Source: Natronobiforma cellulositropha | Lineage (GTDB): Archaea; Halobacteriota; Halobacteria; Halobacteriales; Natrialbaceae | NCBI RefSeq assembly: GCF_025629245.1 | Contig: NZ_JANZXN010000015.1 | Coordinates: forward strand, 124,001 to 188,000 | DNA length: 64,000 nucleotides | Direction of reading: 5' to 3' | The notes under the pieces: generated by a model | Told to the model about the DNA's origin: nothing | The model's database searches: none | Seen by the model: only the letters and a program-made list of their open reading frames with translations | Made by a program: the position numbers and the translations under genes | In this document: positions 6,609 through 38,707 of the stretch, one piece after another | How positions within the stretch are numbered: position 1 is the stretch's first letter | How the letters are laid out: every line of letters starts with the position of its first letter

Positions 6609-6615
6609 CAAACCA

Positions 6616-7845: not shown

Positions 7846-7847
7846 CC

Positions 7848-8051: not shown

Positions 8052-8134
8052 TCGGTGCGTGCGTAGGCTGGCTATACTAAGGAGGTAGCCGTTCCATCCA
8101 CTGGACGCACCGCCGTGCAGCCACCCACTACACT

Positions 8135-9208: not shown

Positions 9209-9298
9209 CGGACTGGCGGCGCTCACGCGTGCTCTCGCGCTCCACGCACTCATCCTCCTTGGCCACCCCTCACACCCCCGCGCACGCTCTCTGCGCAC

Positions 9299-10705: not shown

Positions 10706-10751
10706 AGGGACGTCGCTTCGCGGGGAATACTCTCGCCCTACGTGTGATGGG

Positions 10752-11627: not shown

Positions 11628-11680
11628 TACCCGATATTCGTCTCGGTAGCACTTAATCGAGTGTGGTTCCCCACCCGGCT

Positions 11681-13462
11681 TCAGGCGACCAGGTCACCGT
11701 TGTCGTAGTGGTATCCCGCCTCTTCGAACAGCGCGTGTGCGGCCGCCTCGTCGACTTCGCCGTCAGTGCCGGGGAACTCGAGGAGCGAACCGGCGGCGAC
11801 CGCCGGCAGGTCCCACGGCGAGTCCGGCCGGAAGCCGAGGAGTTCGCCGACGGTCGTCGGCGTCTGTGCGTAGCCGTCGAAGAACTCGCTGGCGACGAAC
11901 TCCCGGTCGATGAGCCGTGAGACGACGCGCCGGAACTGCGGCAGCGTCAGTTCCGGGTGACGGAGGTTGTATCCGACCATGTAGAACGCGTCCGACCTCG
12001 AGTGGAGCGCCGTCGTTCCGTCGGCCTCCTCGACGCTCTCGAGTTGGTTCGCGGTGAGGTACGAGGCGAGGAAGTCGAACTCGCCATCGCCGAGCGCGTC
12101 GATGGCCGAGCCGATGTTCGGCGTCACCCTGAACTCGATGTCTTCGACGAGTTCGATCCCATCGAACACCCCGTCGTGGCCGTCGATGTCGACGTCGTGG
12201 AGGACGTGGTCGTCGTACGGCTCGAGTCTGACGTACTCACTCCCCGACTCTGCGAACGCGTAGAGTCCCGAGCCGACCGGTTCGTCGTTGTCCCAGCGGA
12301 CGGCCTCGGTCGCGTGTGAGTCGATGACGGTCGCTCGCTCTGCCCAGACGTGTTCCGGCAGAATCGGCACCGTCAGCACCCGCTCTGCCGCCGGTCTCGC
12401 ACACTCGTCGAAGGTGAACCGAACCCGACGGTCGTCGAGGACAGCCACGTCGTCGACGGTCGTGATCCGTTCTCTGTACCGCGGCGCTGGAATCTCGTTC
12501 TCCGCCTGACCACGTGCGGTGTCCGCGAGCAACCCGACGGTGAACACGACGTCGGACGCCTCGAGAGCGAGACCGTCGTGCCAGGTCAGTCCCTCACGAA
12601 GCGTCACCGTCGCAGCGAGCGTATCCCCCTCGTCCCACTCGACGCGTTCGGCGAGCCACGGGACCGTTCCCGTCTCAGTGCGGCGCACCAGCGGATCGTA
12701 GAGCAACCCGACGAGCGACCTGATGTCTCGCACGTCGACGGCGATCGGGTTCAGCCGGTCACCGACCGTCTGGTCGACGAGTACGACACGCAACGTCCTC
12801 CCGTTCGGCTCCCCGTTCGCGTCGTTCTCGACGGCGCTCGTGTTCCACCGACTGCCGAGCAGTTCGTAGTACTCGAGGGCAGACCTGGGGGTTCGCGTGA
12901 GATCACTCCCCTCGTTCGCTGCCCCGAGGCGGTCGGGAAACGCGACGGTGGTAAACGGCGCGACGCCACCGAGCGCAGAAAAGAGGTTCCCGAACGCCGT
13001 ACGCCGCCGGCCGCCAGCGCTCTCACACTGTCTCTCGAGTAACTCGTCGACCTCCGCGTCGGAGAAACGAAACGGGTTCTGCCAGCCGCGTTCGTTGATG
13101 AACGCCGAGTGGAGCAATCCCCGGAGCGCATCGGGGTCGTCGTAGCCAGGGTGACGGACGACGAACACGTCGAAATCGGCGTTGATGAGCGTCTGTCGGT
13201 ACAGTTCTGACTCCTCGATCGGCTCGAACCCCGCGTCGATACCCGCCGCCGTGAGCGTCGTCTCGAGGTGGCCAGCGATGGTCGCTGCCATCACGTCGTA
13301 CTCGGCCGGCAGCGCTTTGATCGTCAACGACACCTGCTCGTGTGGCGAGCGCTCCGCGACGGTCCACAGTCGCTCCGAACAGCCAGCGAGGGTCCCGGCA
13401 CCGACGCCAGCGACGCCACCGAGGAGGCGGCGACGCGTCACTGACGGGGCGCTCTCGTCCAT
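11681..13462 (-). CDS. ABC transporter substrate-binding lipoprotein, peptide/nickel (SBP_bac_5) type
   Basis: 593 residues from the ATG at 13462. A Tat signal (TRRRLLGGVAG) ends in lipobox LAGC with Cys28. The body fits DppA/OppA-like binding proteins: NPIAVDVRDIRSLVGLLYDPLV, LREGLTWHDGLALEASDVVFTV and FYMVGYNLRHPEL. A frame extension adds seven residues, but a TATA-like tttacgg about 25 bp before 13462 favours the shorter start. No permease or ATPase genes adjoin it, so it is an orphan binding protein. The first 120 residues also look like a second truncated family-5 segment, hinting at an internal rearrangement. Confidence 0.85.
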   Translation of the reverse strand: MDESAPSVTRRRLLGGVAGVGAGTLAGCSERLWTVAERSPHEQVSLTIKALPAEYDVMAATIAGHLETTLTAAGIDAGFEPIEESELYRQTLINADFDVFVVRHPGYDDPDALRGLLHSAFINERGWQNPFRFSDAEVDELLERQCESAGGRRRTAFGNLFSALGGVAPFTTVAFPDRLGAANEGSDLTRTPRSALEYYELLGSRWNTSAVENDANGEPNGRTLRVVLVDQTVGDRLNPIAVDVRDIRSLVGLLYDPLVRRTETGTVPWLAERVEWDEGDTLAATVTLREGLTWHDGLALEASDVVFTVGLLADTARGQAENEIPAPRYRERITTVDDVAVLDDRRVRFTFDECARPAAERVLTVPILPEHVWAERATVIDSHATEAVRWDNDEPVGSGLYAFAESGSEYVRLEPYDDHVLHDVDIDGHDGVFDGIELVEDIEFRVTPNIGSAIDALGDGEFDFLASYLTANQLESVEEADGTTALHSRSDAFYMVGYNLRHPELTLPQFRRVVSRLIDREFVASEFFDGYAQTPTTVGELLGFRPDSPWDLPAVAAGSLLEFPGTDGEVDEAAAHALFEEAGYHYDNGDLVA

Positions 13463-24077: not shown

Positions 24078-24602
24078 TCAGGTGTCGAGACCGTCGACAC
24101 CGGTGAGCCAGCTATCGGTGTGTTCGTCTCGCTGCCACCGAAGGACTCCGCGCGCCCGCCCGCCGGTGTACCCTGCCTCGCTCGCCCGGAAGAACAACAA
24201 CAGGCCCGACTCGCACTCGATGTGGTGAACTGGGCGCACCCCGGATTCACCGCCAGTGGAACCAGGGCGGCCGATACTGAATCTGTACCGGAGCGCTTCC
24301 GTCGTCGGGTCGAACCCGCTGGTCCGCTCGACTTTGACCGGGACGAGACCCGGGTCGTCCGGATCGACCGGCGACCTGACGTCGATCTCGAGCGACGGTC
24401 CCTCTCGAGCAAGCACCGACTGACCCGACGCCGAGAGACCGACGCCAGCGAGTGCGAGCCCGTACAGCAGTCGGCGTCGGCTCGCCATCGAGGTTGGACG
24501 ACTCGAGTCTCGCAGTTCGTCTGCCTCCGGAGCGTGCGACATCGTTCGTTCGGCGTGATCACGCTCTGGCATATAACCGTACTGGTGGTTCTGGCGGTTC
24601 AT
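24078..24602 (-). CDS. Secreted beta-domain protein, last gene of the HExxH operon
   Basis: 174 residues from the ATG at 24602, whose ATGA overlaps the stop of the HExxH gene, supporting coupling. A twin-arginine-like stretch SRRRLLYGLALAGVGLSASG begins near residue 40, so either the signal has a long n-region or translation starts further in (ATG at MASRRR). The mature part matches a common secreted beta-domain pattern: VDPDDPGLVPVKVERTSGFDP, then GLLLFFRASEAG and GVLRWQRDE. No catalytic residues are evident. It may be an exported partner or target of the operon. Confidence 0.65.
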   Translation of the reverse strand: MNRQNHQYGYMPERDHAERTMSHAPEADELRDSSRPTSMASRRRLLYGLALAGVGLSASGQSVLAREGPSLEIDVRSPVDPDDPGLVPVKVERTSGFDPTTEALRYRFSIGRPGSTGGESGVRPVHHIECESGLLLFFRASEAGYTGGRARGVLRWQRDEHTDSWLTGVDGLDT

Positions 24603-25540
24603 TGGTCTGTGAGCGCCTCCATCGCCTCGCCGTGTAACGCGTCGAAGAGTTCCTCACCGGCAGGTGTGAACAGCCCCTCCCGGTCGGCCAGTTCCTCGAT
24701 CAGGTGGCGTAACGACTCCTCTGCTTCCGCCGTCGCCTCCTCGAGCCACGCCCGGTGAGTGTCGTCGATGTCCCGGTCGAGTTCGTCCGCTCGCATCTCG
24801 ACGAGACCGGTGTAGACGACTGCGGCGTGCAGTGCGCGGTCGGGTTCCCAGAAGCTCTCTCGCCACGGAATCGGAACCTTCTGACTCGCCGCCGCGGAGT
24901 ACGACGGGTCGAGTACGTCCCGGTGTAAGAGCGTGGCACCGAGTTGCTGGTGGAGCGCCTCGTGGTAGAGGTTCTCTCTGAGGGCGTAGTCTGTGGGTTC
25001 GTCTGCGACGCTGTTCGGTGGGATGTGTCGCAGTGCCTTCTCCGTGAGAAACGAACAGTGTGGCACTGCTGGGAACGTCGAAGAGGTGAGGACGGTGGCC
25101 GACGTGCCAGGCGCCCGTTCCAGCCAGACGATCAACGAGGTCCACTCCTCGAGCGCTGCCAGCCGGTCGGGTTCGAGCGTCTCCATGCGCTCGAGGGCGT
25201 CGAGAGTGTGTTCGATCAGTTCGTCCCGGTTCGTCGCCTGCCGGTGTCCCGCGAGCGGTAGCCGGTCGGTCAACGATCCGATTCCCTCGCCGTCGACCAG
25301 GGCGATCGTTCCGTCGCCGTCGGTCCCGTCCGTCCAGTGCAACGCTGGCTGATCCGGTCCAGTGTACGCGTACTCGATTCCCTCTTCGAAGGGATAGGAC
25401 GCACCCAGAGCGAGGCGCTGACAGAGGTACGGAGGTAACTGCCCGATGATCGGCGCGTACGACTCCGGAGCGTCGTCACGCTCGTCGGCCAGGTCGTGGT
25501 AACACTCCACGACGGTCTGCTGAGTGAGTAGCCGATTCAT
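24599..25540 (-). CDS. HExxH-motif protein resembling putative peptide-modification (RiPP) enzymes
   Basis: 313 residues. The segment STFPAVPHCSFLTEKAL, then LRENLYHEALHQQLGATLLH (HEALH at 193-197) and PIPWRESFWEPDRALHAAVV (223-242) follows the layout of the mod_HExxH / alpha-ketoglutarate-HExxH proteins, where H-E-x-x-H and a downstream His (here near H238) bind iron in enzymes that modify ribosomal peptides. Alternatively it is a zinc peptidase, but the surrounding pattern favours the peptide-modification group. It lies between a small helical acidic protein (12 bp upstream) and a secreted protein (ATGA overlap), so these three form one transcript. Substrate and reaction are unproven. Confidence 0.6.
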   Translation of the reverse strand: MNRLLTQQTVVECYHDLADERDDAPESYAPIIGQLPPYLCQRLALGASYPFEEGIEYAYTGPDQPALHWTDGTDGDGTIALVDGEGIGSLTDRLPLAGHRQATNRDELIEHTLDALERMETLEPDRLAALEEWTSLIVWLERAPGTSATVLTSSTFPAVPHCSFLTEKALRHIPPNSVADEPTDYALRENLYHEALHQQLGATLLHRDVLDPSYSAAASQKVPIPWRESFWEPDRALHAAVVYTGLVEMRADELDRDIDDTHRAWLEEATAEAEESLRHLIEELADREGLFTPAGEELFDALHGEAMEALTDQ

Positions 25541-25552
25541 AGGCTCTGGCGT

Positions 25553-25987
25553 TCACTCCCGTACCGGCTCGAGTCCGGTGCGTTCGTCACCCATCCGCTC
25601 TAAAATTTCGACGAAGTCCGGATCGTCGTCGAAACGCTCGCCGACCTCGTTGACGTTCTCGATGAGAACCTCGAGTTTCTCGACCGAACTCAGCCGAGGA
25701 TTGTCGACCAGGTCGTCGAGTCGGCGCTCGAGTCGGTACAGTTTCTCGACGGCGGGGAGCAAGTGCTCGCGTTGTGGGACGCGCTCCTGATTCACGCGAG
25801 CGATCCGCTCGAGTCGTTCGTCGGGAGAGAGCGTCGGGTCGGGAACGTGTTCGATCAACAGACCGCTGAGTTCCTCGAGCTGTCGTGATGCTCGCTCGTT
25901 GACGTCGTCGGGGAGCATCTGGTCGGGAACGATGTGGTCGAGTCGCTGCGTCACCTGCATCATCCGATCGCGAGTGTCGTTAGGCAT
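25553..25987 (-). CDS. Small acidic helical protein, first gene of the HExxH operon
   Basis: 144 residues from the ATG at 25987 (an in-frame GTG at 26008 is possible). It is almost all charged helix: repeated DERLERIARVNQERVPQ, LYRLERRLDDLVDNPRLS and VEKLEVLIENVNEVGERF suggest a three-helix or coiled-coil protein. There are no cysteines and no signal peptide. Twelve bases separate it from the HExxH gene. It could be a partner, a carrier or a precursor peptide with a long leader, but nothing in the sequence proves this. Confidence 0.6.
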   Translation of the reverse strand: MPNDTRDRMMQVTQRLDHIVPDQMLPDDVNERASRQLEELSGLLIEHVPDPTLSPDERLERIARVNQERVPQREHLLPAVEKLYRLERRLDDLVDNPRLSSVEKLEVLIENVNEVGERFDDDPDFVEILERMGDERTGLEPVRE

Positions 25988-26066
25988 GACCGTTGGATCA
26001 ATTTCCACCGGCTATACTTCAACGTTCATATTCTATTCTCTATAGCTATTTCCCCCTCGAGGTAGC
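25988..26066 (-). promoter_or_regulatory. AT-rich promoter region of the HExxH operon
   Basis: On the minus strand this 79-bp gap is much richer in A+T than its neighbours, with TATA-like runs such as ctatagag and gaatatgaa near 26027-26045. It separates the HExxH operon from the upstream AhpD-like gene, so the two are probably transcribed independently. The exact start site is not determined. Confidence 0.45.
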
Positions 26067-26651
26067 CTAGTCGTCGGCAGCGATCGCAGCCATATCGAGT
26101 TCGCGCCAGATGTCTTGGTAGTCGTAGTCGGTGTCGAGGGCTGTGTTGAGACGGTTGTAGGAGGCGAAGTCGCTCACGAGGTGGGTGAGTTGGACGATGC
26201 CTCGGTCACCGAGTCCAACCTCGCGGAGTCGGTCGACGTCCTCGTCGGTGATCGCGTGTGGGTCTTCGTTGACCGCGATGGCGTACTCGACGATCGCCTC
26301 GAGTCGCTCGTCTTCGACGACGGCCGTCCCCTGCTCGGCGAACGCCCGGACGTACTCGGTATCGGCGTCGAGACCGAAGTCGAGGATCGTGCAGAACGCG
26401 CCGGTGCAGTAGGCACAGCGGTTGGCGGTGGAGACGGCGATACCGACGTGCTGGATCTCCGCCATCGTCAGCTCACCGGCTTCCCACAGGGTCGCCGTCG
26501 ACCCGAGCTTTGCCTTCATGTACTCGGGGAAGTTCAACTCGAGGTAGAAGTGGTTCGGTACCGATCCTTCCATCTCGGTCACCCACTCGAATAGCTCCTG
26601 TACAGTTGGGTCATCCACCCGCTCCGGTTCGATGAGTGGCACTCGTGCCAT
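26067..26651 (-). CDS. Carboxymuconolactone decarboxylase / AhpD-like family protein with altered active site
   Basis: 194 residues from the ATG at 26651; a TATA-like caaatacc (minus strand) about 26 bp upstream agrees with that start. The helical fold and the pair CAYC at 79-82 match the AhpD alkylhydroperoxidase-like family, but the histidine that normally follows four residues after the second cysteine is Phe86, with an extra Cys87. Canonical AhpD uses Glu-Cys-Cys-His for peroxide reduction, so this member may have other chemistry. It lies between the halogenase-like gene and the HExxH operon on the same strand. Confidence 0.8.
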   Translation of the reverse strand: MARVPLIEPERVDDPTVQELFEWVTEMEGSVPNHFYLELNFPEYMKAKLGSTATLWEAGELTMAEIQHVGIAVSTANRCAYCTGAFCTILDFGLDADTEYVRAFAEQGTAVVEDERLEAIVEYAIAVNEDPHAITDEDVDRLREVGLGDRGIVQLTHLVSDFASYNRLNTALDTDYDYQDIWRELDMAAIAADD

Positions 26652-26897
26652 ACGTCTGGGGGACGCCGAATCGGTATTTGAAGCGTCTGATGCGCACGGG
26701 GTGCGACCGGCGCACAGGGCTGGTTTCACGCACTGGGTGCGCTGGTCGAACCACGCGTGGCGACACCCAGTGTCGAGGCGGTCAGCGACACACGTCACGT
26801 TCACGACGGCCACCTGGCTCGAGCCACCCCCGCTGTGCCGGTCGGCCACGTCGGGCGGCCGAGACCAGTCACGTGGTTGCTGGGCGTTCGCGGCCGA
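26652..26897. other. Intergenic region between AhpD-like and halogenase-like genes
   Basis: The 246-bp gap includes a TATA-like element near 26676 for the AhpD-like gene and an inverted repeat built on CACTGGGTGC / ACACCCAGTGT around 26729-26776. No gene was seen. The repeat may be part of a terminator for the halogenase-like gene or a regulator site. Confidence 0.35.
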
Positions 26898-28529
26898 TCA
26901 CGCCATCTCAGGAACGTCGAAGTCGAACAGACCCTCGCGGATGTGCGTCGGCGAGTCGGTCTTTCCCCACTCGAGGAGCGCGCCGACGAGTTCGGGGTTG
27001 GAGAAGTCGACGTGGCGTGCCCGTTCGTCGCCCCACGGGTAGACGTGTTTGGGGAGCCACTCGGCGCACTGGAGTTCGTCGAGGATCACCCTCGCGGCTT
27101 GCTCGGGTGGAACCTCGCCGGCCGTGTAGGTGTCCAGCGCGTCGCCGATAGTGTGGTACATCGCCGCCTTCTCGGGGACGAACGGGGCCCGGTCGCCGGG
27201 AGCGGTCTCCTCGCGGAGCGGGTCGAACTCGTCGGGTCGCCCCGAGGCGACGTACTTGAAGCAGTGACGCTGGATGTACAGGTCGTGAAACAGGATCTGT
27301 GCGAGCCACATCTGGGTCCAGGCGTTCCAGACCTCGAAGTCGCCCGTCGCCTTGTAGGCGCTGGCGATGGTGAAGTCGGCGTCCAGAAGCTGTTTGCGGT
27401 GCAGTTCGTCGATCCGTGTGAAGCGCTCGGCGGAGAAGTCGCCGTCCTCGAACGCCTCCAGGAGGAGAGACGAAGAGAGGAAGATGGACTCGAACGTGTC
27501 GATCAGCCCGTTCGAGTAGAGCGGGTCGACGAACCCGTAGGTGTTGTTCGTCATGTAGTGGCGCTCACCCGACGACCGACGCAGCGCGCGCTGGAGACGG
27601 CCCGTGCGGACCCAGGGGCGTACTGCCTCGACCGGCTCGAGGTGGCGTTCGACGTCGGGAAACGCGGAGATAATTCGGTAGAACTCCTCCTCGGCACTCA
27701 CCGACTCGTCGAGGGGATAGGTGGACCGATCCAGCACCAGGCCGACGCTGGCGTTGGTGGCCTCGGAACGCTCGAAGTTGTCGAAGGGGATGATCCACAG
27801 CCAGCCGCCGTCGAACACGTGGTGTAAGGTGCCGTCGTGTAAGCGATTGGACTGGTGTGGGCGGTCTTCGTCCGCGAGCAGGTCGTCGAACGGCTCGAGT
27901 CCCTCGACGTGCGTGAAGATCGCCCGCGAGTCGGTCTCGAGTTCCGGCGCGTGCTCGTGGTAGCCGAGGGTCTCGGCGAGGACGGAGTGGCTCCCCGTAG
28001 CGTCGACGAAGAAGTCGGCTGTGGCCGTCCCGCGGTCGGTGTCGACCGTGACCTCGTCGTCGGTGATCTCCACGTCGGTGATCGCCGTCTCGTCGAGGTA
28101 GGTCACACCGTAGTCGATGGCGGTCCGGACCAGGTAGTGGTCGACGTGTTCGCGCACGAAGTGGCCTTCGCTGTAGAACGGGAGGCTCGGCGGGATCAGC
28201 TGGTGTCCGTACTCGCCGCTGAACGGCTGGTTCCGTTCGTGGTAGGTGAACCCCACCGAGTGTTTGATCCCACAGGAGTGGGTGACCTCGTCTATCACCG
28301 CGTTCACGTCGCTCAGGTACCCCACTTCTGGAATGTCGAAGTACTCGCCGACGATCCACATCCACATCGAACTCTGGGGCAGTAACGCCTCGCCGATGGT
28401 AAACCGTGGATGGGTGCCTGCCTCGAGTAGCAACACGTCGAGACCGTCGTTCGCCAGAATCGTCGCGGTCGTCGAGCCGGCCATCCCCGAGCCGCCGACG
28501 ACGACATCGTAGGTATCGTTCATACTCAT
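26898..28529 (-). CDS. Flavin-dependent halogenase-like FAD oxidoreductase
   Basis: 543 residues from the ATG at 28529 (a second start is two codons in). GGSGMAGSTTA (12-22) is the FAD Rossmann motif, WLWIIP at 243-248 matches the halogenase W-x-W-x-I-P motif, DATGS is at 176-180, and a Lys at 89 (GIKHSVGF) sits where many halogenases keep the catalytic lysine. Such enzymes use FADH2, O2 and chloride or bromide to form a hypohalous acid. In this saline organism the halide supply is abundant. The homology may equally fit a non-halogenating geranylgeranyl-reductase-like or tryptophan-halogenase-related oxidoreductase; activity is unproven. Confidence 0.72.
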   Translation of the reverse strand: MSMNDTYDVVVGGSGMAGSTTATILANDGLDVLLLEAGTHPRFTIGEALLPQSSMWMWIVGEYFDIPEVGYLSDVNAVIDEVTHSCGIKHSVGFTYHERNQPFSGEYGHQLIPPSLPFYSEGHFVREHVDHYLVRTAIDYGVTYLDETAITDVEITDDEVTVDTDRGTATADFFVDATGSHSVLAETLGYHEHAPELETDSRAIFTHVEGLEPFDDLLADEDRPHQSNRLHDGTLHHVFDGGWLWIIPFDNFERSEATNASVGLVLDRSTYPLDESVSAEEEFYRIISAFPDVERHLEPVEAVRPWVRTGRLQRALRRSSGERHYMTNNTYGFVDPLYSNGLIDTFESIFLSSSLLLEAFEDGDFSAERFTRIDELHRKQLLDADFTIASAYKATGDFEVWNAWTQMWLAQILFHDLYIQRHCFKYVASGRPDEFDPLREETAPGDRAPFVPEKAAMYHTIGDALDTYTAGEVPPEQAARVILDELQCAEWLPKHVYPWGDERARHVDFSNPELVGALLEWGKTDSPTHIREGLFDFDVPEMA

Positions 28530-28864
28530 GCTGATAGTTTGGGTTGCGAATTCGCCGAAGACGGTCGGCCACTCACCCAGCGCACCGTTCGGATCGGGCC
28601 GTACAGCGCGGGTCTCCGTCTTCGACGGTTCCCCTGCCACCCGTTATCCACATCCGATAGATAAAGTAGCTGATGCGCACCGTACGGGTTCGACGCACGG
28701 CGTGCACATCGCTCGAAAAGTTGTTAATATAAATCCTCAACTGTGGTATACTACTCGAGACCACCGTTCACTGACACGCACCATCGTATCGGACCACAGC
28801 CGGGTTCGGAGACCGTACACGCGCCGTTCACAAAATTCACTACGGGGTCGGACGATAGACGACT
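28530..28864. promoter_or_regulatory. Divergent regulatory region between halogenase-like gene and winged-helix regulator
   Basis: The 335-bp interval contains an AT-rich core at about 28721-28755 (ttgttaatataaatcc and gtggtatac) with TATA-like elements on either strand, about 200 bp from the halogenase start. The regulator ATG at 28865 is preceded by a weaker A/T-rich patch (ttcacaaaattcacta). A short open frame at 28573-28764 on the minus strand does not look protein-like. Confidence 0.4.
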
Positions 28865-29647
28865 ATGACGATCACGTCCGCGGACGCACTCGCGTCTACG
28901 GTAGTCGACCGTGCAGATTTTCTCGAGGTGGTCGCAGACCGCTCACCGATCGCTGTCAGCGACCTCGCAGACGAACTCGGAACCTCCGTCTCGACGGTCA
29001 ACCGCGTCGTTAGCTCGTTCTCGAGGGAGCAACTCGTCGAGCGGACCGACGGGGCTGTCTCGATCACGCCGTGTGGTGAGGTCGTTCTCGACGCGGTCGA
29101 CCAGCTCGTGGAGACGATCGAAATCACCCGCACGCTCCATCCGGTGATGCTGTCGCTGGCGGACGCGCCGATCGAGTACGACCGCGAGTGGTTCCTCGAG
29201 GCGACCGTCACGACGTCGACGCCGAAACACCCCTACGCGCCGCTCGATCGGTACAGCGAGCTGTTCGCGAACGCCAGCCACAAGCGACTGGTCGGCGACC
29301 AGTTCGTCGTCCCGGAGTACGGCATCGACACGGCGTTACGGGCGATGGAAAGTGGCGTGATGTGTTCGTGCGTCTGGAGTGAGGACGCGCTGGCGCGGAT
29401 GGCCGACGAGTATCCCGAGGTGATCGACTGGTCGGCCGACCAGGACAACCTCGAGGCGGTGACCTCCGAGGCGGTCCCGTTCGATCTCGCGATCTTAGAC
29501 GAGCACCTCCTCGTCTACGGCTTCGACGAGAACGGCATCATGTCCGTCCTGGTGGATACGGACGACCCGGCGGCCGTCGAGTGGGGAATCGCCGTCTTCG
29601 AGGCGTGTTTCGACTCGGGCGAACTCGTCGAACTGGAGCCGACGTAG
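28865..29647 (+). CDS. Winged-helix transcriptional regulator
   Basis: 260 residues. Residues 15-75 form a MarR/IclR-like winged helix (VVADRSPIAVSDLADELGTSVSTVNRVVSSFSREQLVE). The C-terminal two thirds (LFANASHKRLVGDQFVVPEYGIDTALRAME, WSADQDNLEAVTSEAVPFDLAILDEHLLVYGFDENG) resemble the middle/sensor domain of the FilR1-type haloarchaeal regulators. It is encoded divergently from the halogenase-like gene and is the likely controller of that gene or of the nearby operon; the ligand is unknown. Confidence 0.8.
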   Translation: MTITSADALASTVVDRADFLEVVADRSPIAVSDLADELGTSVSTVNRVVSSFSREQLVERTDGAVSITPCGEVVLDAVDQLVETIEITRTLHPVMLSLADAPIEYDREWFLEATVTTSTPKHPYAPLDRYSELFANASHKRLVGDQFVVPEYGIDTALRAMESGVMCSCVWSEDALARMADEYPEVIDWSADQDNLEAVTSEAVPFDLAILDEHLLVYGFDENGIMSVLVDTDDPAAVEWGIAVFEACFDSGELVELEPT

Positions 29648-29787
29648 TCGGTGGTCCGAGGGGCCGCCTCGAGTGAGCTGAGAGAACTGCCGACGGCGTC
29701 GGCTCGAGAGTCGCTAGTGCTTTGGCAGACCTGGACGCCACTGGATCCGCTCGAACACCCCGAGCGGAGCGGGGCGATCTCGAACGC

Positions 29788-31533
29788 TTACAGGCGTTCG
29801 AAGAGCGCGACCACGTCGTTGAAGCCGACGCTCCCGTTCCCACTGAAGTCGAAGTACTGGACGTTGTTCTGGACGACGTCGCCGTTGTGCTCCTCGAAGA
29901 AGGTCACGACGTCGTTGAAGCCGAGGTTGCCGTCGCCCGTCACGTCCTCGTAGCGGCCGTCGCCGGTGAGGTCCTGTGCGGGGTTGCCGTCGCCGTTGAC
30001 GTCGAGGATACTGTCACCGTCGTCGCCGTCGTCGATGACGACCGTGACGCCCGTCGAGTCCGGCTCGTCGACGGAGACGGTCTCGGTGACCGTCTCGTCG
30101 CCGACGGTGACGGTGACCTCGTGCTCGCCGAGGAAGGCATCGGTGGTGAACGTGCCGCTTGCGTCGGTGGTTCCCGACTCGTCGGTCCACCACTCGTCGA
30201 AGACCAGGTCCATCCAGACGTCGTAGCTGGGTTTCGGCGTCCAGTCTTCGTAGAACAGCGGCGGCTGCGGGTCCCAGTACGGGTCGTCGACGTCCCAGAA
30301 GCCCCACATCACGAAGTCGGTGACCGAGGGGTGACTGAAGATCATCTTGAGGAATTCGTAGAAGAACTCCGCGCGGTCTTCCTCCGACCAGCCGTCGCCG
30401 TCGAAGTCGAACTCGGTGATCCGCAGCTCGACGCCGTGTTGAGCGTAGCGCTCGAGACCCTCCCAGATCTCGCTGGGGGTGAGCTGTTCGTTCTGGTGGA
30501 AGTGACACTGGAGACCGGCACCGTCGAGACCGGTGTCCTCCCCGACGAGGAACTCGATCTGGCGCTCGTAGGGACCGCGGGCGTACTCGTAGGCCCCGGC
30601 GAGGGTGTTGTAGTCGTTGACGTCGGTGGCGACGCCGTCGGGGGCGACCGCGTCTGCGTGTTCGTACCACTCCGCGAGCACCGGCGCTTCGACGGCTTCG
30701 ACGCCGTCACCGTCGATCACCTCGATCATGTCCGTCTCGTGGAAGGCCTCGTTGACGACGTCCCACTGGTCGACGACGCTGCCGTAGTGGACGCCGTCGT
30801 ACTCGAAGTCGGCGTAGTGTTCGATGATCGTCTCGATGTGCTCCATCGAGCGCTCGTAGACGTGATCGGGATCGAGCTGGGGATTGCCAGCGCCGCTCTC
30901 GTGGCTGACGTCCATCGCATCGACGACGTCGCCCGGGACGGCCCAGGCCTCGACGTTCCCCCACACACAGGTGTGCCCGCGCATGCGCAGGCCCTGCTCG
31001 GCGACCCAGGCGGTCGCCTCGTCGGCGATGTGCTGTTCGTCCTCGAAGAAGCGCCACTTGTGGTAGTTGCCGAAGACGGCGGTGTTGAACAGCTCCGGGA
31101 CGACCTCGAGGTACTGCTCGCGGTCTGCGTCCGAGATGTCGTTGTCGTCGCCGGTGACGATGGGGGCCGTGAGCGCCGTCCCCCAGCCGAAGGCGTGCTC
31201 TCGCATCTCGACGGAGACGTCGGCATCCGAGACGGGGTTGCCCGCCTCGTCGACGACCGCCACCTCGAGCTCGCTCTGTCGGTGGTCGGCGATCCGCTGG
31301 TCGGCGTCGGCCTCCCAGTTGGCGTCCGCAGCCGCAGTGCCGGTCGCCGGTCCCGCGATTCCACCGACGGCACCGAGGACGCCGGCGATCCCCACCGACC
31401 GCAGATAGTCGCGCCGATCCATCGTGGCCGACGCGTTCGAGTCCACTGACTGGTCGATACGTTCGTCGTCGTCTCGAGGAGCCGGCTCCTCGGTTCGGGC
31501 GTCGTTGTCGCTCGTCGAGTCGTGGCCTGACAT
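29788..31533 (-). CDS. Secreted GH10 endo-1,4-beta-xylanase with dockerin-like C-terminus
   Basis: 581 residues from the ATG at 31533. A Tat signal (MDRRDYLRSVGIAG) follows an acidic 37-residue n-region. The GH10 domain shows the acid/base motif WDVVNEAF, a nucleophile motif LRITEFDF, and GFWDVDDPYWD. A short beta-sandwich linker (VTVTVGDETVTETVSV) leads to two EF-hand-like dockerin repeats, DVTGDGNLGFNDVVTFF and DFSGNGSVGFNDVVALF, at the very end. It should cut xylan outside the cell. A TATA-like ttttatgg lies about 40 bp before the ATG. Confidence 0.88.
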   Translation of the reverse strand: MSGHDSTSDNDARTEEPAPRDDDERIDQSVDSNASATMDRRDYLRSVGIAGVLGAVGGIAGPATGTAAADANWEADADQRIADHRQSELEVAVVDEAGNPVSDADVSVEMREHAFGWGTALTAPIVTGDDNDISDADREQYLEVVPELFNTAVFGNYHKWRFFEDEQHIADEATAWVAEQGLRMRGHTCVWGNVEAWAVPGDVVDAMDVSHESGAGNPQLDPDHVYERSMEHIETIIEHYADFEYDGVHYGSVVDQWDVVNEAFHETDMIEVIDGDGVEAVEAPVLAEWYEHADAVAPDGVATDVNDYNTLAGAYEYARGPYERQIEFLVGEDTGLDGAGLQCHFHQNEQLTPSEIWEGLERYAQHGVELRITEFDFDGDGWSEEDRAEFFYEFLKMIFSHPSVTDFVMWGFWDVDDPYWDPQPPLFYEDWTPKPSYDVWMDLVFDEWWTDESGTTDASGTFTTDAFLGEHEVTVTVGDETVTETVSVDEPDSTGVTVVIDDGDDGDSILDVNGDGNPAQDLTGDGRYEDVTGDGNLGFNDVVTFFEEHNGDVVQNNVQYFDFSGNGSVGFNDVVALFERL

Positions 31534-31643
31534 GACCTGTTCTGGTACTTGATTTCTCCCAATACTCCATAAAATCATCGACCAGGTAGTGGATGGTCGA
31601 GTGAAGTCGTGGGAGTTATAGACCGGTCCTCTGAGGTGCGTAT

Positions 31644-33173
31644 GTGCACTCACACAGGTTGCTCTCACGACAGACCGTCGGACTGGTCCTCGGCCCGGGG
31701 GTGTGCGTTCTGCTCTTGCTCGGTACGCCGTTCGGTCTCTCATCCGCAGCGACGGCCGTCCTCGCGAGCACCGCGTGGGTGGTCATCTGGTGGGTGAGCG
31801 AGGCGGTCCCGATTCCGGTCACGTCGCTGTTGCCGGTCGTCCTCTTTCCGCTGACTGGCGTCACGACGGTCGGCGGGGCAACCGCACCGTACGCCGATCC
31901 GATCGTCTTCTTGCTCCTCGGTGGCTTTCTCATCGCACTGGCGATCGAACGGTGGAACCTCCACCACCGGCTGTCGCTCGTCATCCTCGATGCGGTCGGC
32001 ACCAGTGGAAAAGCGCTCGTCCTCGGCTTCATGGCCGCCACCGCGTTCCTCTCGATGTGGATCTCGAACACGGCAACGGCGATGATGATGGTCCCGATCG
32101 GTGCCGCGGTGATCGTCGAGCTGACGGCCGTCGGCGGTCGCCGGACGCCACCGCTCGAGCGCGACGACATCGAAGCACCGAACGATCCGCTCGAGGTCGA
32201 GGGCGAACTCTTCCACCAGCTCGAGGAGGAGCCGGAGGACCTCCCGAACACCTCGTTCGGGCTGGCACTGATGCTCGGCATCGCCTACGGGGCGTCGATC
32301 GGTGGGGCGGCGACCCTGATCGGGAGTCCGCCGAACGCGGTGTTGGCGGGCGTCGCCGAGTCGAACCTCGGCGTCGAGATTGGCTTTCTCGAGTGGATGC
32401 TCGTCGGCGTCCCCCTCGGTGTCGTCTTCTTGCTCGTCACGTGGCTCTTGCTGGTCGTCGTCCTCCGCCCGACGGTCGAGCCAGGGCCGGAGCGAGCGGA
32501 CGTCGTCGAGCGACAGCTGCGTGAACTCGGCGCGATGACGACGGGTGAACGCCGCGTCCTGGCGGTGTTCGGTCTCGTCGCGGGTGCGTGGATCCTTCGG
32601 CCGTTCGTCATCGAACCCATCGCACCGACGGTCACCGACGCGATGATCGCCATCGCTGGTGCCATCCTCGTCTTTCTGGTGCCGGTCGACGGTGAGCGGC
32701 TGCTCGACTGGGAGTACACCTCGAGAGTCCCGTGGGGCGTCCTCCTCTTGCTCGGTGCTGGGTTCTCGATCGCTCGAGGCTTCCAGGTGAGCGGTCTCGA
32801 CGTCGTCGTGGCGGACGCAATCGTCGGTCTCGGTGTGACGGAGCTGGCGGGGATGGTCCTCCTGCTCACGGCCGTCGTCTGTCTGCTGACGAACGTCACC
32901 TCGAACACCGCCACCGCGTCGCTGTTCATGCCGATCACGTTGAGCATCGGCCTGGCGACCGGCGTCGCACCGCTGACCCTGATGGCGGCCGCCGCCTTCG
33001 CCGCCTCCTTCGCGTTCGTGCTCCCGGTCGCGACCGCGCCGAACGCCATCGTCTTCGCCAGCGGCTACCTGACGATCCCCGAGATGGCGAAAGTCGGACT
33101 CGTCGTCACGGTCCCGGCGATCCTCGCCATCGCCATCTTCACCATCTGGTGGCTCCCACTGGTCTGGTCCTGA
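31644..33173 (+). CDS. SLC13/DASS-family anion permease
   Basis: 509 residues starting at GTG 31644, with a TATA-like gttata about 27 bp upstream. Around 11-12 membrane helices and the paired DASS motifs NTATAMMMVPIGAAV and SNTATASLFMPITLSIG are present, with SIGGAATLIGSPPNAVLAG between them. Members carry dicarboxylates, citrate, sulfate or similar anions with sodium. An acidic cytoplasmic loop is inserted around residues 160-195. The actual anion is not predictable. It is divergent from the xylanase gene. Confidence 0.85.
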   Translation: MHSHRLLSRQTVGLVLGPGVCVLLLLGTPFGLSSAATAVLASTAWVVIWWVSEAVPIPVTSLLPVVLFPLTGVTTVGGATAPYADPIVFLLLGGFLIALAIERWNLHHRLSLVILDAVGTSGKALVLGFMAATAFLSMWISNTATAMMMVPIGAAVIVELTAVGGRRTPPLERDDIEAPNDPLEVEGELFHQLEEEPEDLPNTSFGLALMLGIAYGASIGGAATLIGSPPNAVLAGVAESNLGVEIGFLEWMLVGVPLGVVFLLVTWLLLVVVLRPTVEPGPERADVVERQLRELGAMTTGERRVLAVFGLVAGAWILRPFVIEPIAPTVTDAMIAIAGAILVFLVPVDGERLLDWEYTSRVPWGVLLLLGAGFSIARGFQVSGLDVVVADAIVGLGVTELAGMVLLLTAVVCLLTNVTSNTATASLFMPITLSIGLATGVAPLTLMAAAAFAASFAFVLPVATAPNAIVFASGYLTIPEMAKVGLVVTVPAILAIAIFTIWWLPLVWS

Positions 33174-33229
33174 CGTCCCCTCGCCCGTCCCGAAACACCG
33201 ATGAGACGGCGGTGGACATACACGGAACG

Positions 33230-33973
33230 ATGACCGACGAACTGACCATCGAGGTCGACGCCGACGAACCACCGGAGTCGACGCTGATCGTCGCACTCCC
33301 CGGACCCGGCATGGCTGGCATCTCCGCGACACAGTACCTCATCGAGCAACTCGCACTCGAGGAGACCGGACACATCCAGACCAGCGGGCTTCCGGCGATC
33401 ACCCCGTACACCGACGGCCAGCCGTACCACCACACCAGGCTCTTCTCGAGTCCGGAACTCGAGTGTACGTTCCTGACCAGCGAGTTGCCAGTCCCGCTGC
33501 AGCTCTCCGAGCCGTTCGGCCGGACCCTCGTGGAGTGGATCGACGAGCGAGCGATCGAGGAGGTGACGCTGCTGACCTCGATCCCGTGGCTCGAGCCGGT
33601 CGACGAGCTGTGTTACGTCGCCTCCGAGGACTATCTCGAGAGCCGTCTCGCCGACAGTTCGATCGGGCCGCTTCACGGCGGGTTCCTGACCGGGAGCAAC
33701 GCGAGTCTGCTCTCCCGAGCGATGGATACGACGCTCCGGGTGGGTGTGATCGCGAGTGCTGTCGATCCGCGACTCCCACTCGACGCGAGCGCTGCGTTAC
33801 GCCTCGCGGAAGGTCTCGACGGGCTCTACGGGCTGGACGTGGATACGACCGACCTCCGCGAGTTCGCCGACCGGACACACCAACACTACGAGGCGCTGGC
33901 AGCGCAGTTCGAGGCCCAGCAGGAAGACGACCGGATCCGGCCGCGGGTGACCGACGACTACGGCTTCATGTAG
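33230..33973 (+). CDS. PAC2-family protein (proteasome-assembly-chaperone-like)
   Basis: 247 residues from the ATG at 33230. It starts with a strand-rich segment (ESTLIVALPGPGMAGISATQYLIEQLAL) and contains IPWLEPVDELCYVASEDYLE and GFLTGSNASLLSRAMD, as in archaeal PAC2 proteins related to the eukaryotic proteasome assembly chaperone 2. The role in archaea is not settled. It lies 56 bp after the SLC13-type gene in the same direction and its 3' end overlaps the end of the NSS transporter by 8 bp. Confidence 0.8.
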   Translation: MTDELTIEVDADEPPESTLIVALPGPGMAGISATQYLIEQLALEETGHIQTSGLPAITPYTDGQPYHHTRLFSSPELECTFLTSELPVPLQLSEPFGRTLVEWIDERAIEEVTLLTSIPWLEPVDELCYVASEDYLESRLADSSIGPLHGGFLTGSNASLLSRAMDTTLRVGVIASAVDPRLPLDASAALRLAEGLDGLYGLDVDTTDLREFADRTHQHYEALAAQFEAQQEDDRIRPRVTDDYGFM

Positions 33974-35396
33974 CCTGCTGGGAGGATTCTCGGCGTGAGC
34001 GCCGCCGCCGGTAGAGCAGCCAGCCGACGGCGGCGAGTACCAGCGCGACGAGTAGCGATGCCGTCATCGCGTCGAGGCTCGCGAGCGTTTCGGCTCCCGG
34101 GAGGCGTCGCCAGCGCGAGCGGTCGAGACCGGCGACGAGTCCGAGCGTCGTGACGACGACTAAGACGAGCGGGACGACGTACTTCACCAGCGGGAGGACG
34201 ATGGAGTCGCCGAGCTGTTCTCGCAGGACCGCCTGATCTTGGACCCACGCGAAGACGACGATGAGCGCGAGCGCACCGAGCGGCAGTCCGAGCGTTCCGA
34301 CGGTCGAATCCAGCACGTCGAGGAACGGACGGCCGAGCACCGAGAGTTCGACGGCGCTGTAACTCAGAGCCGACGGGAGACCCACGAGCAATACCACGCC
34401 GGTCACGACGGCGCTCGCGCGTCGGCGCGACCAGTCGGTCGTCCGCATCGCCCCCGCGACACCGACCTCGAGCATGGCCACGGACGGGGCGATCGCGGCG
34501 ACGAACAGCAGCCCGAAGAAACAGACGGCGAGGACCGAGCCGAAGGGCATCGCCTCGAAGGCGGCTGGCAGCGTCGAGAAGGCGAGTTCCGTCCCTGCTG
34601 CGGGTTCGCCGCCGACGGTGAAGACGATCCCGAAGATGACGATCCCCGCGAGGATGGCGACCGTGAGGTCGGCGAGTGCGATGATCACGGACGAACGCGG
34701 GACGTTCGCGTCCGCGCCGAGGTAGCTCCCGTAGGTGAGCAAGACCCCCATCCCCACCGAGAAGGTGAAAAACACCTGGCCGAACGCCGCACTCCAGATC
34801 AGTGGGTCGGAGAGGACCGAGACGTCGGGCGTGAGGAAAAATCGCAGTCCGTCCGTGAAGCCCGGGAGGGTCGCGACGTAGCCCGCCAGCCCGAGGAGGA
34901 CGACGAACGTCAGTGGGATCAACACGCTCGCCATGCGTTCGATCCCCCCTTGAATGCCGAGGGAGACGATCGTCCCGACGGCGAGCGTCGAGACGACGAA
35001 GAAGACGATCGGCTGGTAGGTGCCGGTGAACTCGCCGAAGGCGGGTGTCGATCCGAGAAGCGAGAAGAGCGCGAACGCGAGGACCCACCCCGTGATGACC
35101 AGGTAGTAACTCAACACCGCGAGCACCGACCCGCCGATGAGCCAGCCGACGATCTCGAACTCGGACCGGATCCGGCGACAGGCCGTCACGACGTCGGCTT
35201 TGAGCGACCGACCGACCGAAATCTCGAGAATCATCAACGGGATCGCGAAGGCGAACGCCGCGATCAGGTAGGGGACGAGGTAGGCTCCACCGCCGTTTTG
35301 CCCGACGACGGCGGGGAACCGCCAGATGTTGCCCAGACCGACGGCAGCACCGATGGCCGCGAAGACGAAGCCGATCCGCGAGGACCACTGTTCCAT
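33966..35396 (-). CDS. Sodium-dependent transporter, NSS (SNF) family
   Basis: 476 residues with about twelve helices. GLGNIWRFP near residue 20 is the NSS signature, followed by QNGGGAYLVPYL and IPLMILEISVGRSL. These carriers import amino acids or related small molecules with sodium, which suits a high-salt environment. Members with eleven or twelve helices occur in archaea. The substrate is unknown. Confidence 0.9.
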   Translation of the reverse strand: MEQWSSRIGFVFAAIGAAVGLGNIWRFPAVVGQNGGGAYLVPYLIAAFAFAIPLMILEISVGRSLKADVVTACRRIRSEFEIVGWLIGGSVLAVLSYYLVITGWVLAFALFSLLGSTPAFGEFTGTYQPIVFFVVSTLAVGTIVSLGIQGGIERMASVLIPLTFVVLLGLAGYVATLPGFTDGLRFFLTPDVSVLSDPLIWSAAFGQVFFTFSVGMGVLLTYGSYLGADANVPRSSVIIALADLTVAILAGIVIFGIVFTVGGEPAAGTELAFSTLPAAFEAMPFGSVLAVCFFGLLFVAAIAPSVAMLEVGVAGAMRTTDWSRRRASAVVTGVVLLVGLPSALSYSAVELSVLGRPFLDVLDSTVGTLGLPLGALALIVVFAWVQDQAVLREQLGDSIVLPLVKYVVPLVLVVVTTLGLVAGLDRSRWRRLPGAETLASLDAMTASLLVALVLAAVGWLLYRRRRSRRESSQQAT

Positions 35397-35486
35397 GTGT
35401 CGAGCGAATTCGGCGGGGAAATAAGCGTGGCGGTACTGGCGAGTGTCCTCGCTTCCTGCGTGACACTCCTGGGGTTTCAGCGCGCG

Positions 35487-36899
35487 TTAGCGGACCGTTC
35501 CGGAGAGCACCTTCGCGGCGACGAGGACGGGGTCCCACGTGGTGTTGAACGGCGGCGCGTACGCGAGGTCGTAGTTCTCGAGGTCGGAGACGGTCGCTGC
35601 CTCCGTCAGTGCCGCGACGATCGCGTGGCTGCGGTGGACGGCGCCCTCACCGTACTCGCTGACCAGGCTCGCACCGAGGATACGCCCCGTCTCACGGTCG
35701 GCGGTCAAGGTGACCGTCACCGTCCCACCCTCGGGATAGTAGCCCGCACGGGAGTTCGCCGTGACGGTTTCGCTCACCGGATCGAAGCCCGCCGCTCGAG
35801 CCGCTTCGTGGTCGAGGATACCGGTCCGTGCCGCCTCGATGTCGAACGCCTTGACGGCTGCCGTCCCGGCGACCGCCCCTCCTTCGGTCGGCTTCCCGGT
35901 GACCGTCTGGCCGACCGCCCGGCCGTGACGGTTGGCCGTCAGTGCGAGCGGGACGTACACCGGTTCGCCCGTGACGACGTGCGCCGATTCGGCGCAGTCG
36001 CCCGCCGCGTAGACGTCGGAAACGTTCGTCTCCCGATACGCGTCGGTCTCGATCGCACCGGTCTCCCCGAGTGCGATGCCCGCGTCCTCGGCGAGCGCCG
36101 TCCGCGGTCTGACACCCGTTCCGAGCAGGACCATCTCGACGTCGATCCGTTCGTCGACCGTGACGACGGTCTCGACACGGTCACCGCCCGTGAGGGTCTG
36201 TACGTCGGTCCCGAGGTGAACGACGACGTCTCGCTCTCGGAGGTGGTCGGCGACCGCCTCACTCGTCGCGTCGCTGAACCCCGTCAGCACGCGCTCGCCA
36301 CGCTGGAACAGGTTGACCTCGAACCCGTTCGCTGCCAGCGCCTCGGCCATTTCGACGCCGATGTAGCCGCCACCGACGATACCGACGGGACCGGCACAGT
36401 CCTCGAGATACCGACAGGCCGGTCCCCTGTCGGGCTGCTGGAGTGTGTCTCCGTCTCGAGCCCTCGCGACGTACTCACGGAGTTCTTTGCCGTCGCTCAT
36501 CGACCCGAGCGTGTAGACGCCCTCGAGTTCCGTCCCGTCGATCGGTGGCACTACCGACTCCGACCCCGTCGCGAGCAACAGCCGGTCGTACGGCTGGACC
36601 GTCTCGCCTCCTTCGTGTTCGGCCGTGACCGTTCTGTCGTCGGGGTCGATCGCGACGACCTCGTGGCCCGTCCGCAGATCGATGTCGCGTTCCTCCCGGA
36701 ACGCTTCCGGCGTCACCGAGACGAGGTGCTCGAGCGACTGAATCTCGCCTTTGACGTAGTACGGCAGGCCACAGGCACCGTAGGAGACCCACTCACCTCT
36801 CTCGAAGACGACGACATCCAGTTCGGGGTCGTCGCGTTTCGCTTTACTCGCGGCGGACATGCCGGCGGCGTCTCCACCGACGACGACGAAGGTAGTCAC
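35487..36899 (-). CDS. CoA-disulfide reductase / NADH-oxidase-type flavoprotein
   Basis: 470 residues of the pyridine-nucleotide-disulfide oxidoreductase family. VVVGGDAAGMSAASKAKR is the FAD site, Cys43 (SYGACGLPYYVKGE) is the single redox cysteine of the CoADR/Nox group, GIVGGGYIGVEMAEAL is the NAD(P)H site, and YAAGDCAES precedes the C-terminal dimer domain (TANSRAGYYPEG). It should reduce CoA disulfide or oxygen. Start and length are normal for the family. Confidence 0.87.
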   Translation of the reverse strand: MTTFVVVGGDAAGMSAASKAKRDDPELDVVVFERGEWVSYGACGLPYYVKGEIQSLEHLVSVTPEAFREERDIDLRTGHEVVAIDPDDRTVTAEHEGGETVQPYDRLLLATGSESVVPPIDGTELEGVYTLGSMSDGKELREYVARARDGDTLQQPDRGPACRYLEDCAGPVGIVGGGYIGVEMAEALAANGFEVNLFQRGERVLTGFSDATSEAVADHLRERDVVVHLGTDVQTLTGGDRVETVVTVDERIDVEMVLLGTGVRPRTALAEDAGIALGETGAIETDAYRETNVSDVYAAGDCAESAHVVTGEPVYVPLALTANRHGRAVGQTVTGKPTEGGAVAGTAAVKAFDIEAARTGILDHEAARAAGFDPVSETVTANSRAGYYPEGGTVTVTLTADRETGRILGASLVSEYGEGAVHRSHAIVAALTEAATVSDLENYDLAYAPPFNTTWDPVLVAAKVLSGTVR

Positions 36900-37006
36900 A
36901 GGCCGATATCGACGCCTGGGGTCAAAAGCCCGCGTCGGCTGTGCGTAGAAGGCGCACCGCCGAACGTGCTACCTAAAACAGCGAGAGAGTCCCGCCGTTC
37001 ACGGCG

Positions 37007-37060
37007 TCCTCAGAACGCAAGCGTTCTGATGGGCATCGCAAACCTTCGGTTTGCTCAGCG
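37007..37060. repeat. Paired-hairpin insert A in the left-end palindrome
   Basis: About 54 bp with two perfect hairpins: TCAGAACGC (37010-37018), loop AA, GCGTTCTGA (37021-37029); a linker beginning TGG; then GCAAACC (37038-37044), loop TTC, GGTTTGC (37048-37054). Its removal restores a perfect 7-bp palindrome with a ttca loop at the left end of the IS. One boundary base is ambiguous. Confidence 0.75.
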
Positions 37061-37097
37061 GGCGTGAATCGCGTCACTCGTCGACGCGAACCATCGG

Positions 37098-37238
37098 TCA
37101 CTCCCCGGCCGGAGTCTCCAAGTCGTCAGCGGCGTGGATCAACATCCCGCGCCACGTCAGACCGTGTTCGTTCTTCACGCGCTTGATGCGTTCGTACTGT
37201 TCGTCGTCAGGCACTTCGATGTTAACGTGGTTCGACAC
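37098..37238 (-). CDS. Small accessory protein divergent from tnpB
   Basis: 46 residues, GTG start at 37238: the sequence reads VSNHVNIEVPDDEQYERI, then KRVKNEHGLTWRGML and a short acidic end. It resembles the small antitoxin-like or ribbon-helix-helix-type proteins encoded beside tnpB in haloarchaeal IS elements. It lies 56 bp upstream of tnpB on the opposite strand. Function is unknown. Confidence 0.6.
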   Translation of the reverse strand: MSNHVNIEVPDDEQYERIKRVKNEHGLTWRGMLIHAADDLETPAGE

Positions 37239-37590
37239 AGTGTCTACGAGAATCCGTAGGTCTATGTTAGTTGCGCTCGTACACAGAAGTAGCGATGAAG
37301 CGCACCAACGAGTTCGAAGTGGTTCCGAAGTCCGACGAGGACGAGGAGTTACTTCGCCGACTGTTGGACGCTTCAGCCGCTCTCTGGAACGAGATCAATT
37401 ACCAGCGCCGAACCAACTTCGACGACCCGGACGGCGACGTGTGGGAAATCGACGAGTACCGCGGTCGGTACGGCGGGACGCTCGGCGCGTCAACCGTTCA
37501 GCAGATCGAGCGCAAGAACCGCAACGCGTGGCGGTCGTTCTTCGCACTCCGAGAGAAGGGCGAAGCCAACGGCACGCCCGGCTTCTGGGG

Positions 37591-37641
37591 TCTTGGAGAG
37601 CAAAGCTCTCCAATGGTCAGCGAATCGTAGATTCGCTTCGA
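37591..37641. repeat. Paired-hairpin insert B inside tnpB
   Basis: 51 bp: TTGGAGAGC (37593-37601), loop AAA, GCTCTCCAA (37605-37613), linker TGGTC, AGCGAATC (37619-37626), loop GTA, GATTCGCT (37630-37637; the TAG stop spans loop and stem). Removal makes the DNA read GGCTTCTGGGG-CAACCAAG, which gives [11 protein letters not shown], the expected TnpB sequence. The insert is thus an exact 17-codon addition. Confidence 0.8.
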
Positions 37642-38486
37642 CAACCAAGACGAGGGCCGCGAACTGCGGACGTACATCCGAAACACGTCGTACTCGGTCG
37701 AGTGGGGTGAATACTCTCGCCTCGAGATACTCGTCGGCCAAGACCTGAAAGAAGAGTACGGACTTGGCCGCCAAGAACGACTCCGACTCGAAGTTCGCGG
37801 CGAACCCAACTGGAACGAGTACGACAAGCAGGGTCGGTTAGAACTGTATTACGACGATGTGAGCGAGACGTTCAGGGCCTTTCAGCCAGTCACTATCGAC
37901 AATTCTCGACTGGCACAACCACTGGCGGACGAATCCGCCGCTCTGGATATCGGCGCGAACAACATCGTCGCCTGTACGGTTTCGACCGGCGAGCAGTACC
38001 TGTACGAAGGTCGCGACCTGTTCGAACGGTTCCGCGAGACCACGCAACGGATCGCCGAACTTCAGTCGAAACTTCGGGAAGGTCGGTACAGTTCGAAGCA
38101 GATCGACTCGCTGTACCGACGCCGGACCCGACGACGCGACCATGCACAGGACGCGCTTTGTCGAGACCTGATCGAACGACTGTACGACGAGGGCGTTTCG
38201 ACGGTGTACGTCGGCGACTTAACCGACGTGCTCGAGACACTGGTCGGTTCGGACGAACGCCAAACTGCACAACTTCTGGGCGTTCCGGCGGTTCGTCGGA
38301 CGGCTCGCCGACACCGCCGAGGAGTTCGGTATCTGCGTCGAAGTCCGCACGGAAGCGTGGACCTCGCAGACGTGTCCGAACTGCGGTTCGACGGACCGGA
38401 CCACACGGCACCAAGACACGCTCACGTGTGCCTGCGGTTTCGAAGGTCACGCGGACCTTGCAGCAAGCGAGACGTTCCTGAGGCGT

Positions 38487-38543
38487 CATCAGAACTCAAA
38501 GAGTTCTGATTGGCGAACGAGACACGAAGTGTCTCGTCAACGG
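38487..38543. repeat. Paired-hairpin insert C near the tnpB 3' end
   Basis: About 57 bp: ATCAGAACTC (38488-38497), loop AAA, GAGTTCTGAT (38501-38510), linker TGGCGA, ACGAGACAC (38517-38525), loop GAA, GTGTCTCGT (38529-38537). It adds about 19 codons in frame between ETFLRR and the ordinary C-terminal [13 protein letters not shown]. Exact borders are uncertain by a few bases. Confidence 0.75.
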
Positions 38544-38707
38544 CACGAAACAGACGTAGTACGGCCGATGGCACGGCCCGTGTGCCTCAAGTGGGACAGC
38601 CACGACTGGCTGGAGTCACCACGCTCTTCCCGTCCCAACGAGGAGCACACGAACCCGAAAGTTGCCTCCGTGGACTCGGCATAGCCGAGACTCCCAGCGT
38701 GAGGAAA

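Follow-up and report, generated by a model that had tools for sequence, protein, structure and literature searches.

The locus and its enzyme gene

The window analysed here, a stretch of 64,000 nucleotides from the haloarchaeon Natronobiforma cellulositropha (contig NZ_JANZXN010000015.1, positions 124,001 to 188,000), carries the gene P0001 for a predicted oxygenase of the aKG-HExxH type and, directly upstream, a gene for a protein of 151 amino acids (aa) that is the candidate substrate of this enzyme. The neighbour shares a short motif, RLDHxVPD, with peptides encoded beside the relatives of P0001 in Streptomycetaceae (Table 1).

Table 1. Features of the archaeal window and, in the last row, regulator genes at the Streptomycetaceae loci.
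Feature	Position	Strand	Basis or remark
P0001, homologue of aKG-HExxH-type peptide hydroxylases, 313 aa	24599..25540	minus	TIGR04267; fold match; identity to Streptomycetaceae enzymes
HEALH (H193-H197), putative metal site	24950..24964	minus	H, E and H in 33/33 family rows
R227, putative 2-oxoglutarate carboxylate contact	24860..24862	minus	R in 31/33, K in 2/33 rows
H238, putative third metal ligand	24827..24829	minus	Q 18, H 12, N 1, F 1, V 1 of 33 rows
Acidic, predicted helical 151-aa protein, candidate substrate	25553..26008	minus	stops 12 bases upstream of the P0001 start; repeat motif
VTQRLDHIVPD motif of the candidate substrate	25922..25954	minus	best A4 profile match in the genome
AhpD/carboxymuconolactone-decarboxylase-like protein	26067..26849	minus	TIGR01926, 72.8 bits, under cut-off 81.8
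Flavin-dependent halogenase-like protein	26898..28640	minus	tetracycline 7-halogenase 3.6e-82, PltM 3.9e-77
NsdA-family TPR regulators	L040 3915-5270; L041 3683-5146; L043 3908-5263; L044 3818-5137		divergent from the repeat peptide

Translation of the minus strand gives the P0001 protein from an ATG start, and the plus strand across the same interval is interrupted by stops. The preliminary description, which left the strand unstated, had picked out H193-E-A-L-H197, W226-R-E-S-F-W-E-P-D-R-A-L-H238 and the preceding STFPAVPHCSF as a mod_HExxH-like, possibly iron/2-oxoglutarate-dependent protein. All three segments are present in the translation, and the family proposal is borne out by several results. 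P0001 matches the NCBIfam model TIGR04267 ('aKG-HExxH-type peptide beta-hydroxylase') with 53.3 bits (E 3.2e-14, cut-off 40), showing that the motif is more than chance. The sole match in a sequence search of the PDB was ChlH (8s5f, E 5e-4), whose counterparts align with HEALH, WRE and LHA of P0001 in the HMMER alignment. Structure prediction, for the protein chain alone, was carried out with AlphaFold2 from 11 sequences (mean predicted local distance difference test score (pLDDT) 66, predicted template modelling score 0.68). The resulting model matched the ChlB HExxH domain (8s5f) with Z 17.7, a root-mean-square deviation (rmsd) of 3.6 and 240 aligned residues (a Foldseek run was also made) and SjiH-Ni (22ob) with Z 16.1, an rmsd of 4.3 and 245 aligned residues, followed by a drop to Z 8.3; rows at Z ≤8.3 were left unused. 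By family model and fold, P0001 is thus shown to belong to the Fe(II)/2-oxoglutarate (Fe/2OG)-dependent aKG-HExxH oxygenases, with a predicted activity.

Active site

The active-site alignment comprised 33 rows: P0001, two Streptomycetaceae enzymes, one from Serratia, one from another haloarchaeon and 28 of the 30 loci recovered by a TIGR04267 search of the class to which G413 belongs (148 genomes, 30 of them with a match), the other two loci, L107 and L108, having given no HExxH row. A second alignment, A3, with 11 rows, 10 of them from Streptomycetaceae, shows no variation at H193, E194, H197, W226, R227 or H238.

H238, put forward earlier as the third metal ligand, remains plausible in this role for the P0001 clade and some other members, and the aligned residue of ChlH is also His (HMMER alignment). 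As a family-defining ligand it is weakened, with Gln in 18 of the 33 rows. The position is polar (H/Q/N) in 31 rows and is the sole further polar column past HExxH common to at least 80% of rows, which makes a metal or 2-oxoglutarate role reasonable. R227 is the better family mark, as Arg or Lys occupies its position in all 33 rows.

The same alignment bears on whether P0001 could be a gluzincin-type zinc metallopeptidase. The HExxH motif is located on a helix as such a reading expects, and PMC12636437 likens the family fold to that of zincin proteases and ascribes some proteolytic activity to the member PflC when the leader is absent. However, no conserved Glu follows the motif in the 33 rows, E232 being Glu in only three, which favours the oxygenase and agrees with the earlier remark that a gluzincin-type Glu is absent. 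In addition, no Pfam family matched P0001 at E ≤1, peptidase families included, and the fold and family matches point to oxygenases, leaving a peptidase highly improbable.

Relatives of P0001

Streptomycetaceae supplied the nearest relatives found, enzymes with 32-39% identity (32-36% in A3). A tblastn search of plasmids with P0001 returned loci from Streptomyces (four, at 38-39%) and Serratia (one, at 26.5%), with no haloarchaeal plasmid match, and a pattern-based scan of a species-genome collection (84,980 species) recovered 11 loci, all in Streptomycetaceae; S. rubellomurinus carries a second enzyme copy (L076). P0001 clusters with the Streptomycetaceae enzymes at a local support of 0.863, and at 0.984 with Serratia included.

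Among 391 haloarchaeal genomes, the TIGR04267 cut-off was passed in two, that of P0001 itself and G376, whose enzyme forms a distinct branch. Weak matches of 20-23 bits, below the cut-off of 40, occurred in 29 others. Ten of these loci were inspected and left unused: nine have a long frame containing HE(F/Y/C)(A/T)H(A/T)LLH, the tenth has an HtpX-like HELAH, and they presumably represent other kinds of HExxH protein.

Two of the more distant loci have distinctive surroundings. The second haloarchaeal aKG-HExxH gene (L075 of G376, 5706-12135; 83 bits) overlaps a YcaO gene, followed by MFS-like, PhyH-like and carbamoyltransferase-like open reading frames (ORFs), the last three named from sequence alone; L075 is a possible peptide cluster. 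On the Serratia liquefaciens plasmid p2-125 (L038, 8724-11460), a peptide with three repeats of HPRLQAAAPMNLAKVIGGF is followed by a tetrapyrrole-methylase-like, possibly borosin-type enzyme, then by the HExxH enzyme, in which Asn occupies position 238, and finally by a 2OG-Fe(II) oxygenase.

Repeat peptides in Streptomycetaceae

Sixteen Streptomycetaceae loci were compared (L034-L037, L039-L049 and L076); L074 (viral_contigs), which duplicates the peptide and enzyme of L048, was left out, and the enzyme frames of L036 and L037 are broken upstream of the annotated start. In 14 of the 16, a small ORF directly upstream of the enzyme contains LTRR-L-[DN]-H-x-VPD, LTRRLDHSVPDGDFxP repeats, with one copy in L034, L036 and L037 and two in the remaining eleven. 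The peptides are 52-59 aa long (L041, L048 copy), and neither of the two scanned matched a Pfam or NCBIfam family. In 10 whole genomes, the repeat profile gave 20 matches at E <1e-10, paired and all beside an enzyme of the P0001 clade: 18 in the peptides at the enzyme loci and two elsewhere in one genome, where a second enzyme and TPR protein were found to follow. Weaker matches in these genomes begin at E 0.08. The strings RLDHSVPD, LDHSVPDG and RRLDHSV were not found in the literature text searched, which covered few subscription journals.

Downstream of the Streptomycetaceae enzyme lies a TPR protein with H325-x-D327 and H382-x-R384 in its C-terminal part in all eight aligned sequences; HxD...HxR is the usual Fe/2OG pattern. 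Pfam support for this part is weak (in L034, 2OG-FeII_Oxy_3 alone, at E 0.026 and under the cut-off; in L040, none), so the assignment of the region as a probable second Fe/2OG oxygenase relies on the invariant HxD...HxR. In Streptomycetaceae, repeat peptide, aKG-HExxH enzyme and TPR protein thus form a unit of three genes. Seven ORFs upstream were scanned; those of L040, L041, L043 and L044 encode NsdA-family TPR regulators (Table 1), all well over the cut-off of that model, and those of L047, L034 and L046 do not. Given these divergent regulators, the repeat peptide may act in signalling and not as an antibiotic.

Candidate substrate and proposed hydroxylation

The archaeal 151-aa gene starts with GTG (an in-frame ATG at 25987 would give 144 aa), and its product matches no Pfam or NCBIfam family above its cut-off. 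The N-terminal part of the protein contains QVTQRLDHIVPDQMLPDD. When profile A4, built from the Streptomycetaceae repeats only, was run against the whole archaeal genome, VTQRLDHIVPD ranked first (E 0.08; next 2.75), and the same place came first in an ungapped six-frame scan of the window (score 38; next 27). A DNA pattern for RLDHx[VI]PD matched 16 times in the 391 haloarchaeal genomes, with one match in this genome, inside the 151-aa gene. The motif starts near the N-terminus in the archaeal protein and the Streptomycetaceae peptides alike. Despite the weak sequence match, the sharing of the motif is convincing because the 151-aa gene adjoins the enzyme, and the adjacent gene is likely the partner of P0001.

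These observations suggest, with a probability of about 0.6, that P0001 is an aKG-HExxH oxygenase most likely hydroxylating the 151-aa protein within or beside RLDHIVPD. The enzyme would recognise this motif as its bacterial relatives would recognise the tandem LTRRLDHSVPDGDFxP repeat peptides, and the hydroxyl group would be placed at or beside Asp24, His25, Pro28 or Asp29. Judging from conservation, H193 and H197 would bind the iron, probably together with H238, and R227 would bind 2-oxoglutarate. According to PMC13060819, hydroxylation by known members occurs on His, Asp, Phe, Gln and Pro, which makes each Asp, His and Pro in the motif a conceivable target. The archaeal version would thereby retain the enzyme and a longer substrate with one clear motif copy, without an adjoining TPR/oxygenase gene.

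Several points weigh against this proposal. The motif match is weak when taken alone, with one chance Streptomycetaceae match reaching the same E of 0.08; the motif was spotted by eye before testing, and the case depends on its position. No clear homologue of the 151-aa protein was found in the 391 haloarchaeal genomes, the best match (1.3e-4) covering residues 57-144 and not the motif. Internal repeats in the protein are not significant (p 0.14), with one clear copy and the others degenerate, and its structural model was poor (pLDDT 50) and was discarded. Residues 1-91 of the P0001 model mostly have pLDDT <50. On the bacterial side, the enzyme of L040 itself lies under the TIGR04267 cut-off (26.8 versus 40 bits), L049 has no repeat nearby, and L042 (G415), with an open enzyme gene, has no repeat anywhere in its genome.

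The low motif score, the lack of a clear relative and the character of a long, single-copy and predicted all-helical protein (from the poor model), unlike the 52-59-aa bacterial peptides, would also suit an aKG-HExxH oxygenase whose true substrate is encoded elsewhere, with the 151-aa protein as a helper or binding partner or with a coincidental motif. This alternative is unlikely, though worth keeping in view: the gene adjoins the enzyme, the position of the motif agrees between archaeal and bacterial proteins, and the 15 RLDHx[VI]PD matches in the other 390 genomes (~0.04 per genome) put a chance occurrence in the 151-aa gene at ~5 in a million, for a pattern written post hoc.

A broader proposal, held tentatively and at slightly less than even odds, is that hydroxylation by an aKG-HExxH oxygenase dedicated to RLDHxVPD is common to Streptomycetaceae and the archaeon. 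In the bacteria, the target would be a new class of ribosomal peptide whose production also involves another Fe/2OG oxygenase; NsdA-family TPR regulators adjoin it at several loci, and it possibly serves signalling. In the archaeon, the target would be a larger helical protein. The aKG-HExxH family is known, and the new elements are the Streptomycetaceae enzymes as nearest relatives, their upstream repeat peptides and the motif in the archaeal neighbour.

Genomic setting

A gap of 58 bases separates the 151-aa gene from the AhpD-like gene upstream, which was found in one of 61 genomes, its own (E ≤1e-20). The halogenase was found in four of the 61, its own included, and is 86% identical on a Halomontanus rarus plasmid and 64% identical on a Halostagnicola larsenii plasmid; on the latter it adjoins a FilR1-type regulator, as it does in the window.

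A joint tailoring of a small molecule by the enzyme, the AhpD-like protein and the halogenase, with no peptide substrate, would agree with four genes on one strand at gaps of 48, 58 and 12 bases and with the relationship of the halogenase to tetracycline 7-halogenase and PltM, two enzymes with small phenolic substrates. Such a pathway is nevertheless improbable, as the surroundings of the Halomontanus and Halostagnicola homologues contain no annotated HExxH enzyme, P0001 gave no haloarchaeal match in the plasmid search, and the characterised aKG-HExxH members act on peptides in the available parts of the literature. A halogenase-centred cluster was dropped as the core of the locus on the same surroundings, and the halogenase is probably a module separate from the pair of P0001 and the 151-aa gene.

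On the other side, the gene at 24078-24602 overlaps the P0001 stop by four bases and shows a twin-arginine-like signal (12.5 bits, under the cut-off) and no other family. The related genome G024 has gatE within 290 bases of the membrane-protein gene that lies at window 38889-40712, against ~15 kb between the two in the present genome. This variable island (window 24078-38700) holds the enzyme, the 151-aa, AhpD-like and halogenase-like genes and others, including a GH10-like xylanase and transporters (named from sequence, not by family search). None of the tested cargo genes was found within the 19.5 kb compared in the further relatives G001, G021 and G018. The island genes were probably acquired by transfer.

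Comparison with known systems

Which reactions aKG-HExxH enzymes catalyse, and on which substrates, 'at present cannot be predicted', as stated in PMC13060819. A neighbour with a short stretch in common with the probable substrate peptides of bacterial relatives hints at the target of P0001, and the present comparison gives one aKG-HExxH clade a specific candidate motif, in bacteria and an archaeon. Sources on this family and on archaeal peptides were PMC12636437, PMC13060819, PMC12707348, PMC12614342 and PMC12144867. A term search found no mention of HExxH in the available main text of the archaeal ribosomal-peptide survey (PMC12144867), and no relevant mention of SjiH was found in the literature searched.

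Among characterised systems, the aKG-HExxH beta-hydroxylase ChlB HExxH domain/ChlH (8s5f) is like P0001 in fold (Z 17.7) and in the places of HExxH, Arg and His. Unlike ChlB, the archaeal enzyme is a stand-alone protein, and none of the eight neighbourhood proteins scanned gave a radical SAM match. PflC/PosC, BipH/BpmH and PesO are HExxH oxygenases described in clusters with a precursor gene, to which the 151-aa gene would correspond. The partners in those clusters are MNIO, nitroreductase, radical SAM or nitrile-forming enzymes; the archaeal locus instead has genes of the halogenase-like and AhpD-like kinds, and its candidate motif differs. Compared with the Streptomycetaceae unit, the archaeal partner is a 151-aa protein with one clear copy rather than a short tandem-repeat peptide, and none of the eight scanned proteins gave a TPR/2OG match, whereas the enzyme clade and the RLDHxVPD motif are common to both.
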